A stretch of 64,000 bases of DNA from Imbricaverruca yamaguchii (Eukaryota; Arthropoda; Thecostraca; Neoverrucidae): contig JAOTOL010001387.1 of the NCBI GenBank assembly GCA_034440575.1, positions 703,501 to 767,500 of the forward strand. The letters run 5' to 3'. Of this stretch, positions 11,750 to 64,000 are shown in pieces (position 1 is the first letter of the stretch; the number at the start of each line of letters is the position of its first letter). Both the position numbers and the translations under genes were made by a program. The notes beneath the pieces are model-generated. The model searched no databases, had not been told where the DNA came from, and saw only the letters and a program-made list of their open reading frames with translations.

Positions 11750-14700
11750 GTCACCGTCTGGTGTCGGTACCAGACGGGCGGTGACAGTGTCTGGTGTCAG
11801 TACCAGGCTGGCGGCGACAGTGTCTGGTGTCGGTACCAGGCGGACGGCGACAGTGTCTGGTGTCAGTACCAGGCGGGCGGCGACAGTGTCTGGTGCCAGT
11901 ACCAGGCGGGCGACGACAGTGTCTGGTGTCAGTACCAGGCGGGCGGTGACAATACCTGGTAGTCAGTGCCAGGAGTGCGGCGACTGTATCTGGTGTCAGT
12001 ACCAGGCGGGCGGCGACAGTGTTTGGTGCCAGTACCAGGCAGGCGACGACGGTGTCTGGTGTCAGTACCAGGCGGGCGACGACATTGTCTGGTCAGTACC
12101 AGGCCGGCGGCAACAGTGTCTGGTGTCAGCACCAGGCGGGCGGCGACAATTTCTGGTGGCCTGCTTGTGTCAGTACCAGGCGGGCGACGACAGTGTCTGG
12201 TGTCAGTACCAGGCGGGCGGCGACAGTATCTGGTGGCCTGCTTGATTCAGTACCAGGCGGGCGGCGACGGTATCTGGTGTCAGTACCAGGCGGGCAACAA
12301 CAGTGTCTGGTGCCAGTACCAGGCCGGCGGCGACAGTGTTTGGTATCAGTATCAGGCGGGCGGCGACAGTGTCTTGTGTCAGTACCGGGCGGGCGGTGAC
12401 AGTGTCTGGTGTCAGTACCAGGCTGTCGGCTATAACGTCTGGTGTGAGTAACAGGTGGAAGGCGAGAGTGTCTGGCGGCCTGCTTTGTGTCAGTACCAGG
12501 CGGGCGGCGACGGTGTCTGGTGTCAGTACCAGGCGGGAAACAACAGTGTCTGGTGCCAGTACCAGGCGGGCGACGACAGTGCCTGATGTCAGTACCAGGC
12601 CGGCGTCGACAGTGTCTGGTGTCAGTACCAGGTGGGCGGCGACAGTGTCTGGTGTCAGTACCAGGCGGGCGGCGACAATGTCTGGTGGCCTGCTTGTGTC
12701 AGTACCAGGCGGGCGGCGACGGTGTCTGGTGTCAGTACCAGACGGGCGGCGACAGTGTCTGGTGTCAGTATCAGGCGGGCGGCGACAGTGTCTGGGGTTA
12801 GTACCAGACGGGCGGCGACAATGTCTGGTGGCCTGCTTGTGTCACTATCAGACGGGTGGCGACAGTGTCTGGTGGCCTGCTTGTGTCAGTACCAGGCAGG
12901 CGACGACAGTGTCTGATGTCAGTACCAGGCGGGTGGCGACAGTGTCTGGTGGCCTGCTTGTGTCACTACCAGACGTGTGGCGACAGTGTCTTGTGGCCTG
13001 CTTGTGTCACTACCAGACGGGTGGCGACAGTGTCTGGTGGCCTGCTTGTGTCAGTACCAGGCAGGCGACGACAGTATCTGGTGTCAGTACCAGGCGGGTG
13101 GCGACAGTATCTGGTGGTCTGCTTGTTCCAGTACCAGGCGGGTGGCGACGGTGTCTAGTGTCAGTGCCAGGCGGGCGGCGACAGTGTTTGGTATCAGTAA
13201 CAGGCGGGCGGCGACAGTGTCTGGTGTCAGTACCAGGCGGGCGGTGACAGTGCCTGGTAGTCAGTACCAGGCGGGCGACGACGGTGTCTGGTGTCAGTAC
13301 CAGACGGGCGGCGACAGTGTCTGATGCCAATACCAGGCGGGCGACGAATGTGTCTGGTGTCAGTACCAGGCCGACGGCGACAGTGTCTGGTGTCATTACC
13401 AAGCGGGTGGTAACAATGCCTGGTATTCAGTGCCAGGAGGGCGGCGACAGTATTTGGTGTCAGTTCCTGGCGGGCGGCGACAACGTCTGGTGTCAGCCCC
13501 AGGCGGGGGCGACGGTGTCTGGTGTCAGTACCAGGCGTGCGGTGACAATGCCTGGTAGTGCCAGGAGGGCGGCGACAACGTCTGGTGTCAGCTCCAGGCG
13601 GGGGGCGACAGCATCTGGTGTCAGTTCTAGGCGGGCGGCGACAACGTCTGGTTTCATTACCAGGCGGGCGGCGACAGTGTCTGGTGTCAGTACCAGACGT
13701 GCGACGAGTGTCTGGTGTCAGTACCAGGCGGGCGGTCACAGTGTCTGGTATTCAGTACCAGACGAACGGCGACAGTGCCTGGTGTCAGTATCAGGCTGGC
13801 GGCGACAATGTCTGGCGACCTGCTGGTGTCAGTACCAGGGGGGGGGGGCGACTGTGTCTGGTGTCAGTATCGGGTGTACGGCGACAATGTCTGGTGTCAG
13901 TACTAGGCGGACGGTGACAGTGTCTGGTATCAGTACCAGGCGGACGGCGACAGTATCTGGTGTCAGTACCAGGCGGGTGGCGACAGTGTCTGTTGTCAGT
14001 ACCAGGCGGGCGGCGACAACGTCTGGTGGCCTGCTTGTGTCAGTACCAGGAGGGCGGTAACGATGTCTGGTGTCAGTACCAGACGGGCGGCGACAGTGTC
14101 TGGTGTCAGTACCAGGCGGGCGACGACAGTGTCTGGTGTCAGTACCAGGCGGGAGGCGACAGTATCTGGTGTCAGTACCAGGCGTGCGATGACAGTGTTT
14201 GGTGGCCTGTTGGTGTCAATACCAGGCGGGAGTCGACGGTGTCTGATGTCAGTACCAGGATGGCGGCGACAGTGTCTGGTGTCAGTATCAGGCGGGCGGC
14301 GACAATGTCTGGTGGCCTGATTGTGTCAGCACCAAGCGGGCGGCGACAGTATCTGGTGTCAGTTCAAGGCGGGCGGCGACAATGCCTGGTGTTCTGCTTG
14401 TGTCAGTACCAAGCGGGCGGCGACGGTGTCTGGTGTCAGTACCAGACGGGCGGCGACAGTGTCTGGTGTCAGTGCCAGGCCGGCGGCGACAATGTCTGGT
14501 GGCCTGCTTGTGTCTGTACCAGGCGGGCGGCGACGCTGTCTGGTGTCAGTACCACACGGGCTGCGACGGTGTCTGCTGTCAGTATCAGACGGGCGGCGAC
14601 AGTGTCTGGGGTTAGTACCAGACGGGTGGCGACAGTTTTTGGTATCAGTACCAGGCGGGCGGCGACAGTGTCTGCTGTCAGTACCACGCGGGCGGTGACA

Positions 14701-17213
14701 GTGCGTAGTGGTCAGTGCCAGGTGGGCGGCGACAGTATCTGGTGTCAGTACCAGACGTGCGATGACAGTGTTTGGTGGCCTGTTGGTGTCAGTACCAGGC
14801 GGGCGGCGACGGTGTCTGGTGTCAGTACCAGGCGGGAAACAACAGTGTCTGGTGCCAGTACCAGGCGGGCGACGACAGTGCCTGATGTCAGTACCAGGCC
14901 GGCGTCGACAGTGTCTGGTGTCAGTACCAGGCGGGCGGCGACAGTGTCTGGTGTCAGTACCAGGCGGGCGGCGACAATGTCTGGTGGCCCGCTTGTGTCA
15001 GTACCAGGCGGGCGGCGACGGTGTCTGGTGTCAGTACCAGACGGGCGGCGACAGTGTCTGGTGTCAGTATCAGGCGGGCGGCGACAGTGTCTGGGGTCAG
15101 TACCAGACGGGCGGCGACAATGTCTGGTGGCCTGCTTGTGTGACTACCAGACGGGTGGCGACAGTGTCTGGTGGCCTGCTTGTGTCAGTACCAGGCAGGC
15201 GACGACAGTGTCTGATGTCAGTACCAGGCGGGTGGCGACAGTGTCTGGTGGCCTGCTTGTGTCACTACCAGACGTGTGGCGACAGTGTCTTGTGGCCTGC
15301 TTGTGTCACTACCAGACGGGTGGCGACAGTGTCTGGTGGCCTGCTGTGTCAGTACCAGGCAGGCGACGACAGTATCTGGTGTCAGTACCAGGCGGGTGGC
15401 GACAGTATCTGGTGGTCTGCTTGTTCCAGTACCAGGCGGGTGGCGACGGTATCTGGTGTCAGTGCCAGGCGGGCGGCGACAGTGTTTGGTATCAGTAACA
15501 GGCGGGCGGCGACAGTGTCTGGTGTCAGTACCAGGCGGGCGGTGACAGTGCCTGGTAGTCAGTACCAGGCGGGCGACGACGGTGTCTGGTGTCAGTACCA
15601 GACGGGCGGCGACAGTGTCTGATGCCAATACCAGGCGGGCGACGACAGTGTCTGGTCCCAGTACCAGGCGGGCAACGACGGTGTCTGGTGTCAGTACCAG
15701 ACGGGCGGCGACAGTGTCTGATGCCAATACCAGGCGGGCGACGAATGTGCCTGGTGTCAGTACCAGGCCGACGGCGACAGTGTCTGGTGTCAGTACCAAG
15801 CGGGTGGTGACAATGCCTGGTATTCAGTGCCAGGAGGGCGGCGACAGTATCTGGTGTCAGTTCCTGGCGGGCGGCGACAACGTCTGGTGTCAGCCCCAGG
15901 CGGGGGGCGACGGTGTCTGGTGTCAGTACCAGGCGGGCAGTGACAATGCCTGGTAGTGCCAGGAGGGCGGCGACAACGTCTGGTGTCAGCTCCAGGCGGG
16001 GGGCGACAGCATCTGGTGTCAGTTCTAGGCGGGCGGCGACAACGTCTGGTGTCATTACCAGGCGGGCGGCGACAGTGTCTGGTGTCAGTATCAGGCGGGC
16101 GGCGACAATGTCTGGTGGCCTGATTGTGTCAGCACCAAGCGGGCGGCGACAGTATCTGGTGTCAGTTCAAGGCGGGCGGCGACAATGCCTGGTGTTCTGC
16201 TTGTGTCAGTACCAAGCGGGCGGCGACGGTGTCTGGTGTCAGTACCAGACGGGCGGCGACAGTGTCTGGCGTCAGTACCAAGCGGGCAGTGACAGTGTCT
16301 GGTAGTTAGTGCCAGGAGTGCGGCGACTGTATCTGGTGTCAGTACCAGGCGGACGGGGACAAAGTCTTGTGTCAGTACCAGGCGGAAGGCGGCAATATCT
16401 GGTGTCAGTACCAGGCGTGCGATGACAGTGTTTGGTGGCCTGTTGGTATCAGTACCAGGCGGGCGGCGACGGTTTCTCGTGTCAGTACCAGGCGGGCAAC
16501 AACAGTGTCTGGTGCCAGTACCAGGCGGGCGATGGCAGTGTCTGGTGTCAGTACCAGGCCGGCGTCGACAGTGTTTGGTATCAGTACCAGGCGGGCGGCG
16601 ACAGTGTCTTGTGTCAGTACCAGGCGGGCGGTGACCGTGCCTGGTAGTCAGTGCCAGGAGGGAGGCGACAGTATCTGGTGTCAGTACCAGGCTGTCGGTG
16701 ACAACGTCTGGTGTGAGTAACAGGCGGAAGGCGAGAGTGTCTGGCGGCCTGTTGGTGTCAGTACCAGGCGGGCGGCGACGGTGTCTGATGTCAGTGCCAT
16801 GCGGGTAAGCAACAGTGTCTGGTGCCAGTACCAGGCGGGCGACGACAGTGTCTGGTGTCAGTACCAGGCGGGCGGCGACACTGTCTGGTGTCAGTACCAG
16901 GCGGGCGGCGACAGTGTCTGGTGTCCTGTTGGTGTCAGTACCATGCGGGCGGCGACAGTGTCTGGTGTCAGTACCAGGCGGGCGCCGACAGTGTCTGGTG
17001 TCAGTACCAGACGGGCGGCGACAGTGTCTGGTGTCAGTACCAGGCGGGCGGTGACAGTGTCTGGTGTCCTGTTGGTGTCAGTACCAGGCGGGCGGCGACA
17101 CTGTCTGGTGTCAGTACCATGTGGGCGCCGACAGTGTCTGGTGTCAGTACCAGACGGGCGGCGACAGTGTCTGGTGTCAGTACCAGGCGGGCGGTGACAG
17201 TGTCTGGTGTCCG
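11750..17213. repeat. 5.5-kb array of a 33-bp unit with higher-order structure
   Basis: About 165 copies of a 33-bp unit with core CAGTACCAGGCGGGCGGCGA followed by CAGTGTCTGGTGT. Variant units carrying a GGCCTGCTTGTGTCAG insert recur at intervals. Longer blocks are themselves repeated: the rare variant GGCGGGAAACAACAG occurs at about 12,532 and 14,831, 2,299 bp apart, and the neighbouring variants follow in the same order for about 0.9 kb. Because 33 is divisible by three and the unit lacks stops on the plus strand, all three plus frames stay open for hundreds of codons, the longest 512. Those peptides are periodic 11-residue strings without any domain, and I regard them as non-coding. Confidence 0.97.
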
Positions 17214-17280: not shown

Positions 17281-18046
17281 GTCACGGCACTGTACACTGT
17301 CACGGTATAGGGTTAGGCTCCCCTGTCTGGCACTGTACACCGTCACAGTATAAGGTCAGTTTCACCTGTCTGGCACTGTACACCGTCACAGTATAAGGTT
17401 AGGCTCACATGTCTGGCACTGTACACCGTCACAGTATAGGGTCAGTTTCACCTGTCTGGCACTGTACACCGTCACAGTATAAGGTTAGGCTCACTTGTCT
17501 GGCACTGTACACCGTCACAGTATAGGGTCAGTTTCACCTGTCTGGCACTGTGCACCGTCACAGTATAAGGTTAGGCTCACCTGTCTGGCACTGTACACCG
17601 TCACAGTATAGGGTCAGTTTCACCTATCTGGCACTGCACACCGTTACAGTATAGGGTCAGGCTCACCTGTCTGGCACTGTACACAGTCACGGTATAGGGT
17701 CAGGTTCACCTGTTTGGCACTGTACACCGTCACGATATAGGGTAAGGTTCACCTGTCTGACACTGTACACCGTCACAGTATAAGGTTAGGCTCACTTGTC
17801 TGGCACTGTACACCGTCACAATATAGGGTCAGTTTCACCTATCTGGCACTGCACACCGTTACAGTATAGGGTCAGGCTCACCTGTCTGGCACTGTACACA
17901 GTCACGGTATAGGGTCAGGTTCACCTGTTTGGCACTGTACACCGTCACGGTATAGGGTCAGGTTCACCTGTCTGACACTCTACACCGTCACGGTATAGGG
18001 TCAGGCTCACCTGTCCGACACTGCACACCGTCACGATATAGGGCAA
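17281..18046. repeat. 43-bp minisatellite with donor-like motif on minus strand
   Basis: About 18 units with core CACCTGTCTGGCACTGTACA then CCGTCACAGTATAGGGTC. The 43-bp period is not a multiple of three. Read on the minus strand, units contain GACAGGTGAGCC or GACAGGTGAACC, a good match to a 5' splice-site consensus. Blocks of two or three units are duplicated (17,600-17,700 resembles 17,840-17,940). Confidence 0.95.
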
Positions 18047-18834
18047 GGCACGACTGAACGTGCGGGAAATATTTTCCTACGGCAGAATTAAAAAACAAAA
18101 GTGTACTTGGTGGATGGCATTACAGTGCCAGGCGTCAGTGGCATTCAGAAGGTGGATGGGACCTGTCACCCCACCCAACCAAACTTCACCACCACCCCAC
18201 CCCCACCCCATCCCCAACGTCGAAAAGCTTGGCAATAAGTCTATGAATGATACATGGAAAGAATGAACCCAAAATGGATCATGTCCCCCCTTCTATCCGA
18301 AGTTCGTGAAAGCGTTGTAGTTCAGGGGGAGGGAGGGGGATGTCGTTTCAGTATTTAGTGAGTAATACTTCCACATATTTTCACCAAAAAAATGCGTTCC
18401 TCAGGGACACTTTTTGCAACACGATACAGTAACTCCACTAAGGCATTCGTCTAGTGGACCGGGTTGCTGAGTAACCAGCCACCCAGCCAGCCAGCCACCC
18501 AGCGGACTAGCATCTCCGTCGTCGTACTGTCTTTCTGTCCGTCCGTACGTCGGTATCTTTTCCCATTTGCTCTAATTTTGTAAATTTGCATTTGCTGAGT
18601 GACAACTTTTCTCAGCTGATTGCCACATGTGGCGTGTGTCGAGTGGAATGTGTCCGGCGGTCGTGGAGATGCAGATTGGGGACGATCCATCTGTGATAAG
18701 CTGACCGGGTGTGCACGCACAGCCATGGTCAGCGGTCACATTGCGGCGGTGGCTGCTGATAAGATTGTCATCGAGCACCGGCTGTGTCTGGCGGCGGCTA
18801 CAGTCGGGTGTGCCGTGTCCGCCACTGGCGTCAT

Positions 18835-44369: not shown

Positions 44370-44716
44370 TTCCTGGGGACCTCCTTTTCGTCCTGGGGGC
44401 CTCCTTTTCATCCTGGGTCCTCCTTATCGTCCTGGGAGCCTCCTTTTCGTCACCGGGCCTCCTTTTCGTCCTGGGGATTCCTTTTCGTCCTGGGGCATCC
44501 TTTTGGCCCTGTGGCCTCTTGCTCGTCCTGGGGGCCTCATTTTCGTCTTGGGGCCTCCTTTTCGTCCTGGAGGATACCTTTTCGTCGTGGGGCCTCCTTT
44601 TCGTCCTGGGGCCTTTATTTCGTCCTGGGGGCCTCGATTTCGTCATGGGGGCCTTCTTTTCATCCTGGGGGCCTGCTTTTCGTCCTGAGGGCCTTCTTTT
44701 CGTCCTGGGGGCCTCC
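44370..44716. repeat. Most regular part of the CTTTTCGTCCTGGGGGCCTC array
   Basis: About 16 tandem units of 19-24 bp. Unit length drifts, so frames such as VLGASFSSWGPPFRPG run open only by local chance. Mirrored by the inverted array at 49,290-50,010. Confidence 0.85.
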
Positions 44717-45121
44717 TCAAATTTCAGGGGGCGGCGCACCCCCCAGTCTCACGGCAGGGAGCAAATTGGAGTCAATGGTCCCATTTTTCCCCTGCCAAAT
44801 TGGAGTCAAAGTCATGTTTGGTCACCGAGGTCAAGTGAGCTCAAGTTCATGGCAGGTTAATGGAACCAAACTTGGTCAACTGAAATGTGTCATAAATGCA
44901 AATGACTGTCATGCGATTGATGTCACTTTACATGTTATTCCCTACACATCCCGAAATCTCCTGTTTGTCATTGTGTGCCTAAGCGTTTCCATACTTTATT
45001 CATGCATTTCACTCCTTTCTTTGCGAAGACGATTGTGCCGAGCCGCCCAACGGGCAGTTGGTTGGTAGCCCGGCTCCCGCAACTGGAGCAGGTAATAGCC
45101 TTATAAAGTGCTACTATATAG

Positions 45122-49035: not shown

Positions 49036-52000
49036 CATGGGCGTCGCCACCGGAGGGCAGCGGGAGCAATCCCCCCGCCCTCTGCTGTGAGACTGGGGGG
49101 TCGCCGCCCCTCCTGAAATTTAAGGAGGCCCCTATCCGGAAATACACAGGAAAAAAGGTGAGTTAGGAGGCCAACGGGACAAAAAATAATGCTGTCAAGG
49201 AGGCAGTATATATGCGCCGTCAGTATATATACTGACAATGAGGCCCCCAGGAAATATCAGCTCCTTATAAGAATCGTAGAACAGAGATTGGGAGGAGGCG
49301 CCCAGGACGAAACGGACGCCCCGGGACGAAAAAGAGCCCCAGGACGAAAAGGAGGCTCCCAGAACGAAACGGAGGCACCCGGGACGAAAAGGAGGCCCCC
49401 AGGACGAAAAGGAGGCCCCAGGACGAAAAGGAGGCCCCAGGACGAAAAGGATCCCCCAGGACAGAACGGAGGCCCCCATGACGAAACGGAGGCTCCACAG
49501 GACAAACAAGAGGTCCCCAGGACGAAAAACAGGCCCGGAGGACGAAAAGGAGACCCTCAGGCCGTGAAGAAGGCTCACAGGACGAACAGGAGACCCCCGT
49601 GACGAAAAGGAGGCCCCCAGGACGAAAAGGAGGCCCCCAGGACGAAAATGAGGCTTCCAGGACGAAAAGGAGGCTCCCAGGACGAAAAACAGGCCCCAAG
49701 GGCGAAAAGGAGGCCCCAGGACGAAAAGAAGGCCCCAGGACGAAAAGCAGGCTCCCAAGGGCAATATCATCAGGTACCTATACGATACGTAGAACAGAGA
49801 TTGGGAGGAGGCCCCCAGGACGAAAAGGAAGCCTCGAGAACGAAGAGAATGCCCTAGGACGAAAACGAGGCTCCAGGGACGAAGAGGAGACCCCAGAACG
49901 AAAAAGAGTCCCCATGACGAAAAGGAGGCACCCAGGACGAAAAGGAGGTCCCCAGGATGAAAAGTAGGCACCCCAGGACGAAAAGGAGGCCCCCAGAACG
50001 AAAAGGAGTTTCCCACAACAGGACAATATCAGGTCCCTATAAGAGACGTAGAACGGAGATTTGGAGGAGGCCCCCAGGTCGAATCAACACCAAAAGCAGG
50101 ACGCCCCCAAGACGTGAGAGGAGGCTCCTAATTTAAAAAAGGACTATAAGAGAAATAGAGTTCCAGGGAAAGAGTTCCAAGTTAATGAGAGGAGGCCCTT
50201 AAGATGGGAGTGGCAGCAGGCATTGAAGGATGTGAGGTTTCCAAAATTGAAGATCCCTCAAGACAGGGGACAGGGCAGGAGGCCCATAATTTGGCAGATA
50301 ATGTTCCTGGAGCATGAGAGCAAGCACCATGCTATGCTAAACAGGCCCCAGGATGTAAGAGGAGGCCCTCAAAGACGAGAGAGGAGGACCATTGAATATG
50401 GAGGAGGATAGGACACACAAGGAATAATTGAAAACTGGTAAAGAGACTCCAGGAAATTAGACGAGATCCTTAAGACGGGAAATGAGGCCTATAATTTGCA
50501 AGAAGAAGCCCCAAAGAAATAGTAGAAGTCGTGCCGAGGTACTTGACTAGCATGATATGGGCCCAAAAAGATCCAGCTGGGGCCCCTGAAAACCACGCTG
50601 AGCCTGAGGTTACCAAAAATTCACGGCCGGACTATGAAAGTCACTCTAGAGGCAGGACGGGTCGTTCCACAACAGTCTCATTGCGACCAAAACAAATGAA
50701 GCTGGAGAAACGAAAATAATCCAAACATGGATAATCACCCTGAGGACCCAACAATGACGCCAAAAGCCCCCAAAACGTATTGGACCCACAAAAAGTATCG
50801 AGGCCGCTGAAGCTCGCGCTAGGGATCCAAGCAAAGGACGTCGGGCCCAATAGACGACATTGGCCTAAAAAATAGTCCCGTCGCAGCCCTGGACAATCAC
50901 ACTGCAGGCCCAAAAGATCGCGCTGGGCCTCAAATCCTGCTGCTGCTCCAAAAATCAATTCTTAACCGGAATGTCATTCTAGGACAACAACAAAAAAATA
51001 CTCCTTTAGTGGCCGCATTGGCATATCAAAGGGGCAAATTCCCCCTCCATCCTGAGAGGGATAAGCTCTCGGGAATCGTGCTGGGGCTCCGAAAGTCTCG
51101 CTTGGGCCACAAAAATTTGCGTCGGTCCACCAGCATTCGCGCAGGGGTCTTTAAATAAATACGGTGGGCCCCGGAAAACTCGCTCCGAGGCCCGAGAACT
51201 TGCAACAGGAAGCCGAAAATCGCATTGGCGAAACAGCTAAGTACAACGCGTCCCACAAACTCGAACCGGTCCCCCAAAATATCGCGCTCGGAACCCACAT
51301 CTCCCATCGGTAGTCCGTCGAGTCTTAACAAAATTGGCGTCTAGGGCCACACGTGCGCACAATGTGACCACAAAACCCGAATCGGTATTCGACGAAAAAT
51401 CAAGCTGGAGCCCTTCAAAATAAAGATGGATTCTACAAAATGAATGTCCGGGTCAGGAAAATGGCTCTGGAGCACCCAACATATTACCAGTTGCCTTCAC
51501 AAATTTCGTACGACATCGAAAAACATAACGGATCTAGAAAAATCGAGGTAAGATACAAAAAGGTGGCGCCAGGGGCTCGAAAAATCAGGCCGGGATTCGG
51601 ACTTCTAGGAAAGTTCGAAAAGATCCACCAACATCGCGTTGAGCCCAGAAAACTGGTGTTGGGTCCCCGGAACCACGCGCTTGGGCGCGATAAGTCGCAC
51701 TGGGACCCAAGAGCGTCGCACCGAAGCCACAAACTCGATCCCACCTCGGTTTTTCCAGATCCGGTATGTTTTTCGATGCCGTACGCAATTTGTGAAGGCA
51801 TCCGGTAATATGTTCGGTGCATCATAGCCATTTTCCTCACCAGGAATTATTTTTTGGGGAATCCCTCAATATTTTTGAGGGCACCAGCTTGATAATTTCG
51901 GATAGCGATCCGGTTTTTGTAGTATAGGTATAGTTCTAGCAGTGTGAGGTGACAATTATCAAAGGATGCCAAGAGAAAACTTTAGAACTGGGTGGGGGAG

Positions 52001-55965: not shown

Positions 55966-56043
55966 CTTAGGTTAGGTTCGGTTAGATTAGGTTAGGTTAG
56001 GTTAGGTTAGGTTAGGTTAGGTTAGGCTAGGCTAGGCTGGGTT
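55966..56043. repeat. Interstitial (TTAGG)n tract
   Basis: About 14 TTAGG pentamers, seven or more perfect in a row, with degenerate ends (TTAGA, CTAGG). TTAGG is the ancestral arthropod telomere repeat. Unique sequence on both sides shows that this copy is interstitial. Confidence 0.85.
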
Positions 56044-56854
56044 AAGTTCCTTTTTAATTGTGATAATTTTCAGGAAATAAAACTTTTCACATATTTTTTC
56101 TTACAAATATAGGCTGTGCTAGGTTAGGCTCCATTAAAAAAAAAAAATTATGCTATGTTACATAACTCAAAGCCACCTTTTTTTACATTACGTTGTTCAC
56201 AACCTGAAAAGTAAGCATTTGCAGAGAAAATAAGTGGTTCTATCATCTTAAGTCACCTTTATAAACATTTTATTTAAAAAAAGTCCCCCCAAAATCAAAA
56301 ACACCTTTTAAGACAAATCTACCATACATTGCTGAGCAGCACAATATCCCGCCCAAAACCATTGTTTCAGAAATACATATTTTTATCCCCACAAAATAAG
56401 CTGCAACTGGCATAGCCGTGTAAGCTTTTCAGTGTCCATAGCTGAATAATGATGCCATAAAATATAAATTAAGTTTGTTTGCCCGAGTGCAATACCACAT
56501 ATGCCTTACTAAGCCTGCCAGATATTATATGTTGTCAAGCTCAGGTATGTTGGCTAGTGTAGCCTAAGTGTGCATCAACTGCGTAAGGCATAGAGCGCCC
56601 GTAATTTCAAGGGTATATGCAGCGAGGTTGGCAAGATGCTGACATACTTATATTTATACCATGTGGAAATACATTTGGTATGAAGACACACCCACCTTAT
56701 ATAGACTATGACTGGCTTGTGACTGGATTCAGAGGTTCTCTTAATCCCAGAGATACTTCTCTTTTTCACTGAAATCTTGCCGCACAACTGCACCGATCCG
56801 CACGCCGCCGCATCCCAAACAAAAATGGCCGACAGTTCGCATTTGTTTCGTTAA

Positions 56855-62996: not shown

Positions 62997-63108
62997 GGTG
63001 TCTCGCATTGTCTCGCATTGTCTCGCATTGTCTCGCATTGTCTCACATTGTCGCAGATTGTCGCAGATTGTCGCAGATTGTCTCACATTGTCTCACATTG
63101 TCTCAGAT
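62997..63108. repeat. 10-bp minisatellite, TCTCGCATTG
   Basis: About eleven units of a 10-mer with variants TCTCACATTG and TCGCAGATTG. It lies downstream of the adenylyl cyclase exon in the direction of transcription, probably within the intron. Confidence 0.9.
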
Positions 63109-63223
63109 TTCTTCCAACACTCCTCGATGTCTCCCCTGTAGCTGACATGACACGAGTGTATTCGCCCCACTACAGCTGACAATAGACGATAATATAGCTT
63201 AATATGTGACTGGTATATAGGCG

Positions 63224-63697
63224 ACAAGGCGTCTCACTTGCAACTGACAATACACAAGAGGACGTCTCACCTGGGACTGGCAATACGCGACGGGACGTCT
63301 CGCTTACGACTGGCAATACAGGAGGGAAAGTGTCTCACCTGCGACTGGCAATACAGGATGGAAGGCGTCTCACCTGTGACTGGCAATACAGGAGGGAAGA
63401 CGTCTCACCTGAGACTGCCAATACAGGAGGGAAGGCGTCTCACCTACGACTTGCAATACAGGAGGGAAGGCGTCTCACCTGAGACTGGCAATACAGGAGG
63501 GAAGGCGTCTCACCTGAGACTGGCAATACAGGAGGGAAGGCTCTCACCTGTAGATAACAGTACTGGCTGACAAGACATGAGTGGAAGCGTATCACCTGTG
63601 AATGGCATCCGACCAGCGACGATGTCTCACCCGTTAACGACATCCGACCAGCGACGATGTCTCACCCGTTAACGACATCCGACCAGCGACGATGTCT
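63224..63697 (-). repeat. Intronic 34-35-bp minisatellite carrying donor-like sequence
   Basis: On the minus strand, the direction of the adenylyl cyclase gene, each of about 13 units starts with GTGAGACG, GTGAGACA or a close variant, preceded in most by CAG. Two sub-types exist. Two or three units next to the exon continue CATCGTCGCTGGTCGGATG. The distal units continue CGCCTTCCCTCCTGTATTGC. The first intron bases after the real exon (GTAAGACATCGTCGCTGG) are one more unit, so the array grew from the splice junction. Confidence 0.9.
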
Positions 63698-63698
63698 T

Positions 63699-63700
63699 AC
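63699..63700 (-). promoter_or_regulatory. 5' splice site (GT) of adenylyl cyclase exon
   Basis: Minus-strand GCACAG/GTAAGA, the strongest consensus match at this border and the one that closes the conserved reading frame. Confidence 0.8.
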
Positions 63701-63812
63701 CTGTGCAATTTGGTCGAACCTTCCGAACATCTCGTTGAGCGTCAGCACAAGGTCACTGGCACTGAGCTGTTCCGACAGTGGGGTGAAGTTGACGATGTCG
63801 GCGTACAAGATG
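63701..63812 (-). CDS. Adenylyl cyclase C1 catalytic-domain exon
   Basis: This exon encodes part of a membrane adenylyl cyclase (ATP to cyclic AMP and pyrophosphate, a G-protein effector). The minus strand gives one split codon plus 37 residues: ILYADIVNFTPLSEQLSASD followed by LVLTLNEMFGRFDQIAQ. YADIVNFT is the signature of class III cyclase domains, and its Asp is the first of two metal-binding acidic residues. LNEMFGRFDQIA is the adjoining conserved helix. The FDQIA ending and YADIV are closest to vertebrate types 2/4/7 (and, from memory, to insect Ac76E), but one exon cannot settle the subtype. The 112-bp length gives an incoming split codon and ends between codons at CAG/GTAAGA. An in-frame TGA lies 18 bp upstream of the first full codon's glycine, which supports the acceptor at 63,813-63,814. 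Preceding exons lie beyond the window. The following one (expected GDCYY motif) was not found to the left. Confidence 0.88.
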
Positions 63813-63814
63813 CT
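63813..63814 (-). promoter_or_regulatory. 3' splice site (AG) of adenylyl cyclase exon
   Basis: Minus-strand CGTTTTATCGGCAG/CATC. The pyrimidine tract is short; better-looking tracts occur in upstream repeat copies (ATTTTCTCCGCAG near 63,955). Confidence 0.7.
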
Positions 63815-63998
63815 GCCGATAAAACGTCCACGTCAAGCTTACATGCTGCCGAGGAAACGTCCATATCATATCAAAATGATTTTGTCGAGAAAACACTCAC
63901 GTCATGTTCATGGCATACTGTTGAAAAAAACGCCCACTTCACAAACACAGAATGCTGCGGAGAAAATGTGGACTTGATAAACATAATGTGTTGTGGAG
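63813..63998 (-). repeat. Intronic 33-37-bp minisatellite carrying acceptor-like sequence
   Basis: On the minus strand about five units repeat the pattern TGANGTGGACGTTTTNTCGG then CAGCAT. The unit nearest the exon supplies the actual splice acceptor. Further copies read CGTTTCCTCGGCAGCAT, GTTTTCTCGACAAAATC, CGTTTTTTTCAACAGTAT and ATTTTCTCCGCAGCATT. The array runs off the window edge. Confidence 0.75.
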
Positions 63999-64000
63999 AA

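Follow-up and report, generated by a model that had tools for sequence, protein, structure and literature searches.

An exon of an adenylyl cyclase gene on the minus strand of a stretch of Imbricaverruca yamaguchii DNA (64,000 nt in all, hereafter the window) is bordered on each side by a tandem array, and each array contains copies of the splice signal of the border that it reaches. The tandem unit contains the exon's splice site, and that site, which presumably is the one used, is the terminal member of its array. We consider it probable that these are mirage-like minisatellites, that is, tolerated tandem growth of intron-end DNA including the splice site. The preliminary description had already reported that two arrays flank the exon, hold copies of its own splice signals and reach both of its borders, and the unit and shuffle analyses given below bear this out. 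The genuine donor does stand first in its array, whose unit 1 begins at intron base +1, and the genuine acceptor last, at the copy ending at 63812.

The exon and its gene context

Read on the minus strand from position 64000 downwards, the window holds the end of an intron, the exon (63812–63701) and the start of the next intron. The 112 bp of the exon comprise the last base of one codon followed by 37 codons, ILYADIVNFTPLSEQLSASDLVLTLNEMFGRFDQIAQ. Their translation matches Pfam PF00211 with 27.9 bits (cut-off 21.9), and the best match among solved structures is AC5 (E 2.6e-8). The structure matches at E 0.001 or lower comprise 14 distinct sequences, nine of which are AC5, AC9 or AC8 chains and five other cyclases. 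Judged by this translation, the exon belongs to an animal-type membrane adenylyl cyclase, in which it encodes part of the first catalytic domain, and the protein match points to use of both genuine splice sites.

A search of the whole window in six frames with eight short motifs found no downstream cyclase exon. In a tblastn comparison of the window with two cyclase fragments, the known exon was alone in giving a strong match (E 4e-11) among the best 30 rows. It follows that the downstream intron may exceed 63 kb, and also that the exon might be an orphan fragment. Rfam, at gathering scores, gave 0 matches in the window.

Table 1. Features at the exon and its two borders, in window coordinates.
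Feature	Position	Strand	Basis
Adenylyl cyclase catalytic-domain exon	63701..63812	-	Translation; PF00211; AC5/AC9/AC8 structure matches
Genuine 5′ splice site CAG/GTAAGA (CAG/GTAAGACA)	63699..63700	-	U1 duplex -11.0 kcal/mol; first donor-side array member
Genuine 3′ splice site TTTTATCGGCAG/CAT	63813..63814	-	Last acceptor-side array member
Donor-side minisatellite, ~16 units, 35-bp register, begins at splice junction	63136..63700	-	Lag identity; unit alignment
Type-A units D01–D03, 85–97% alike, sub-expansion adjoining exon	63596..63700	-	TRF; unit similarity
Type-B units D05–D11, 79–97% alike, middle sub-expansion	63305..63547	-	TRF; unit similarity
Decayed units D12–D16, far end of donor-side array	63136..63304	-	Unit similarity
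10-bp array of GTGAGACAAT-like units, just past 35-bp array	62999..63109	-	TRF; sequence inspection
Acceptor-side array, five diverged copies plus three exon bases, runs to window end	63810..64000	-	Alignment; shuffles

The donor-side array

On the donor side, identity at a lag of 35 is 0.60 over 600 nt. Division at the donor words yields 16 units, 15 of them 33–35 nt long and one of 48 nt, whilst TRF covers the region in two rows, 63592–63701 (3.1 copies, 93% matches) and 63226–63550 (9.4 copies, 84%). D01 and D02 differ solely at position +3. Variant donor words, namely TAG/GTGAGACG, CAG/GTGATACG and CAG/GTGAGAGC, occur in single copies. The only exon bases in the unit are CAG, which is common to any donor; the exon tail without this last CAG is no closer to the units than shuffles are (p 0.18, 0.41 and 0.70).

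When the shuffle omits the donor word, D03, D04 and D16 still align to the type-B unit D06 (p 0.008, 0.0004 and 0.0008, respectively); the similarity of D02 to D06 is not significant under the same procedure (p 0.17), and that of D15, shuffled whole, is marginal (p 0.05). From these alignments we read the donor-side repeats as a single array in which two types of unit have each been sub-expanded. The neighbouring 10-bp array shares the word GTGAGACA with the 35-bp array and, by inspection, was possibly derived from the same donor word.

The acceptor-side array

The acceptor-side copies end at 63954, 63917, 63882, 63845 and 63812, with spacings of 37, 35, 37 and 33. Each has a T-rich stretch followed by CAGCAT (three of the five), CAGTAT (one) or ACAAAAT (one). 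An earlier estimate had been about four upstream units ending in CAGCAT. The three exon bases CAT belong to the acceptor unit and are present in those three copies; the exon head shows no closer similarity to the acceptor units than shuffles do (p 0.95, 0.72, 0.75 and 0.08).

This array is weak, and its period is backed by shuffles. TRF, at default and at looser settings, reported no 36-bp array here. Periodicity exceeds that of dinucleotide shuffles at lags 35–38 (p 0.0065 for the best 23 nt; p 0.0005 for the mean) and when any lag is allowed (p 0.002). The array may continue beyond the window end. Among the 12 positions preceding the CAG, the genuine acceptor has 7 pyrimidines and the four upstream copies have 9, 9, 8 and 8; since the genuine site is the poorest of the five, exclusive use of 63812 is not obvious from sequence.

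Strength of the donor copies and predicted effect of their use

Donor copies were scored by their duplex energy with the 5′ end of U1, an energy of -8 or lower counting as a strong match. Scoring the repeat copies as donors, a check that had been proposed for this locus, identified 11 copies besides the genuine site as strong matches. These 12 sites, all in 63110–63700, are among the 64 that the minus strand has over the whole window; the plus strand has 56. At -11.0 or lower, the array region holds 8 of the 14 sites on the minus strand, and seven decoys match the genuine donor in energy (-11.1 versus -11.0). The word CAGGTRAG is found once on the plus strand, whilst the minus strand has it 14 times, of which 8 are in the donor-side array, 4 in the array at 17.3–18.0 kb and 2 single. 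The strong donor copies announced in the preliminary description are therefore real, whereas its count of about 13 units with a good donor word becomes 12 strong sites in some 16 units. Since the duplicated segment includes the donor, every unit is expected to have a donor word, and the presence of these words is not separate evidence of function.

Ten of the 11 decoy donors give an extension that meets an in-frame TGA at codon 13, the nearest one adds 35 nt and so shifts the frame, and all four upstream acceptor copies would bring in stops. On this reading of the frames, decoy use would be harmful. As it gives frameshifts or stops, useful variation in protein length and a working backup site are both unlikely; exon-length variation as a useful consequence, which had been suggested, does not hold, and the case for buffering against splice-site mutation is weak. 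The arrays would instead be neutral or slightly costly passengers, not a regulatory device.

A reading that gives the copies a function is that, by recruiting U1 or by competing with the genuine donor, the array tunes expression of the cyclase by way of stop-containing transcripts. The seven decoys that equal the genuine donor in U1 energy and lead to stops are in keeping with this, as are mixed hints of donor-word retention between unit types, but the type-B units carry no selection signal, and the lower local-folding accessibility of the decoys relative to the genuine donor is matched by shuffles that keep the repeats. We regard this reading as improbable.

The tests behind these statements are as follows. 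Within type B, 3 of 63 donor-core positions and 11 of 182 body positions have changed (Fisher p 1.0), which is no sign of selection. D03, compared with the type-B consensus, is identical at 9/9 positions of the donor core and at 14/26 of the body (p 0.015). A comparison by 35 circular blocks used 15 units, without D04. Between types A and B its three top-scoring blocks overlap the donor, and between type A and the tail units the donor core ranks first; between type B and the tail units the donor blocks are not top-ranked. These mixed results hint that the donor word may have been kept or recopied between unit types. Such comparisons give no clear sign of selection on the copies, and a function for them, though conceivable, is not established.

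In local folding, the genuine donor exceeds all 11 decoys in accessibility in four of the five settings, and 9 of the 11 in the fifth; set against 40 single strong donors from elsewhere, the decoys have a mean accessibility at the 12.5% point. In shuffles in which unit bodies were permuted alike in equal-length units, scored on 10 of the 11 decoys, accessibility was at least as low in 43/150 and the difference between genuine donor and decoys as large in 68/150. Structural masking of the decoy donors is not supported, since shuffles that keep the repetition give the same accessibility.

Other repeats and open reading frames in the window

At 17286–18076 (minus strand), a 66-nt open stretch, 18011–18076, is followed by an array of 43-bp period in which 11 strong donor words occur, most of them CAG/GTGA... 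The open stretch is preceded by a pyrimidine run and TAG and followed by CAG/GTGAGC, and these signals give it the look of a second exon with donor copies. It was rejected as a further exon of the cyclase, there being no overlap with it among the best 30 tblastn rows obtained with the two cyclase fragments.

A minisatellite with a 33-bp unit in about 155 copies extends over 11756–17211, and TRF rows inside it have longer periods of 44, 110, 121, 143 and 164 bp. Two 20-bp arrays about 5 kb apart (44371–44717 and 49293–50008) have consensus units that are, up to rotation, reverse complements of each other. An interstitial run of about 16 units of TTAGG, the telomere repeat of many arthropods, is found at 55967–56048. 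Three transposon-like open reading frames gave 14 protein matches, five of them to a wasp (38%) and a sea slug (39–43%) and nine others at 43–61%.

Possible chance placement of the arrays

The window is rich in repeats: of 676 segments of 188 bp, 125 equal or exceed the acceptor flank in periodicity, and the 21 TRF loci kept from 50 rows, after removal of dinucleotide runs and most overlapping rows, total 10.8 kb. With so many stretches as periodic as the acceptor side, arrays on both flanks are not in themselves very unlikely; if placed independently, they would be expected at a few percent of exons. A repeat-rich genome might thus have put arrays at both borders with no link to the splice sites, and the second array of donor words, at 17286–18043, which adjoins no confirmed exon, is in line with such a coincidence. 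What chance explains less readily is the exact abutment at the donor, as the 39 other array edges, with dinucleotide runs excluded, would put an edge within 1 bp of a random point in about 0.2% of cases. This abutment would be less surprising if selection merely halts arrays at exon borders. The donor-side units, however, also hold the register of the junction, and overall we judge coincidence unlikely, though less so than any reading in which the copies act in splicing.

Proposed origin and comparison with known systems

We favour tolerated growth from the intron ends. Tandem duplication, whether by replication slippage or by unequal exchange, would have copied short intron-end segments, which at one border comprise the 5′ splice site and at the other the 3′ splice site with three exon bases. 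Copies would pile up on the intron side, where splicing removes them, whilst selection on the coding sequence would keep the exon unrepeated; their toleration would stem from use of the exon-proximal sites. Growth of the intron through tandem duplication from its junction had been listed among several possible consequences, and it is the one that fits best, given the start at +1 and the common register.

Published systems are compared here as the available portions of their reports describe them. In amphioxus, 'mirages' are repeats that span or abut splice junctions at 5′ and 3′ boundaries (PMC3087553, PMC3902484); the genes concerned are Adh3, the globins BflGb6 and BflGb9, and TnC (PMC3087553), and PGBD5, in which repeats abut 5′ splice sites, has been likened to them (PMC3902484). 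Their AG/GT signals are present in many copies, and RT-PCR data for Adh3 and globin suggest regular splicing (PMC3087553). The arrays here are likewise minisatellite-like tandem copies of an exon–intron boundary with AG/GT in many copies. They differ in lying at both ends of one exon, and, unlike the units of BflGb6, which include part of exon 2, they hold at most three exon bases. The preliminary remark that no described case with symmetric arrays at both borders of one exon was known has to be qualified in view of the amphioxus minisatellites (PMC3087553, PMC3902484) and of human ones at exon–intron boundaries (PMC2812944); what stands is that, in the portions seen of these reports, arrays at both ends of one exon are unreported. 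Among the literature matches listed, as represented by titles and abstract openings, there was no further described case, including any with arrays at both ends of one exon.

In human segmental duplications, variable minisatellites at exon–intron boundaries have been tied to new introns (PMC2812944). Those arrays, with units of about 30 bp on average, resemble the present ones in that growth at an exon–intron boundary is linked to splice-site change, but they alter exons or make new introns (PMC2812944), whereas the present repeats look intronic and leave the exon as it was.

Human UBC, which uses tandem AGGT sites both ways, and Drosophila ratchet points bear on another reading, in which the donor-side AG/GT copies would be dual-specific or recursive sites, serving as acceptor for the exon and then again as donor. 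In the same reading, an additional splice, of a very long intron, would put right splicing into the array. The regular AGGT array resembles that of UBC (PMC10809524), with 10 occurrences in 63110–63702 out of 184 on the minus strand; a crude rule finds 4 acceptor-like sites in 63226–63550, and the lack of a downstream cyclase exon in the window allows an intron of more than 63 kb. UBC repeats, however, are coding and used (PMC10809524), whereas those here are intronic and their AGGT sites putative. CCAG stands 6 nt ahead of CAG/GT in five places, so that the first AG past the pyrimidines would leave 6 nt, and a spacing of 35 nt is too short for single-unit introns. Ratchet points share the AG/GT junction words and, possibly, the setting in a long intron, but in flies they are described inside long introns and not as an exon-edge array (PMC8605326), in contrast to the dozen or so sites found here 35 nt apart at an exon edge. 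We think it improbable that the copies are dual-specific or recursive sites at which such splicing repairs entry into the array.

Implications

Still less probable, in our estimation, is a self-correcting module, in which array-entering splicing would be undone by a further splice at the AG/GT sites repeated at the start of a very long intron. Were this true, splice-junction minisatellites could grow without harm to the gene, and the introns on either side of an old exon would have a way to lengthen, perhaps in organisms other than lancelets.

The locus adds a clean case, at both borders of one conserved-domain exon, to the few splice-junction minisatellites described. It offers a natural test of donor choice by a spliceosome that is faced with a dozen nearly equivalent donors at 35-nt intervals. 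It is likewise a natural test of whether tandem duplication makes introns grow from their ends.
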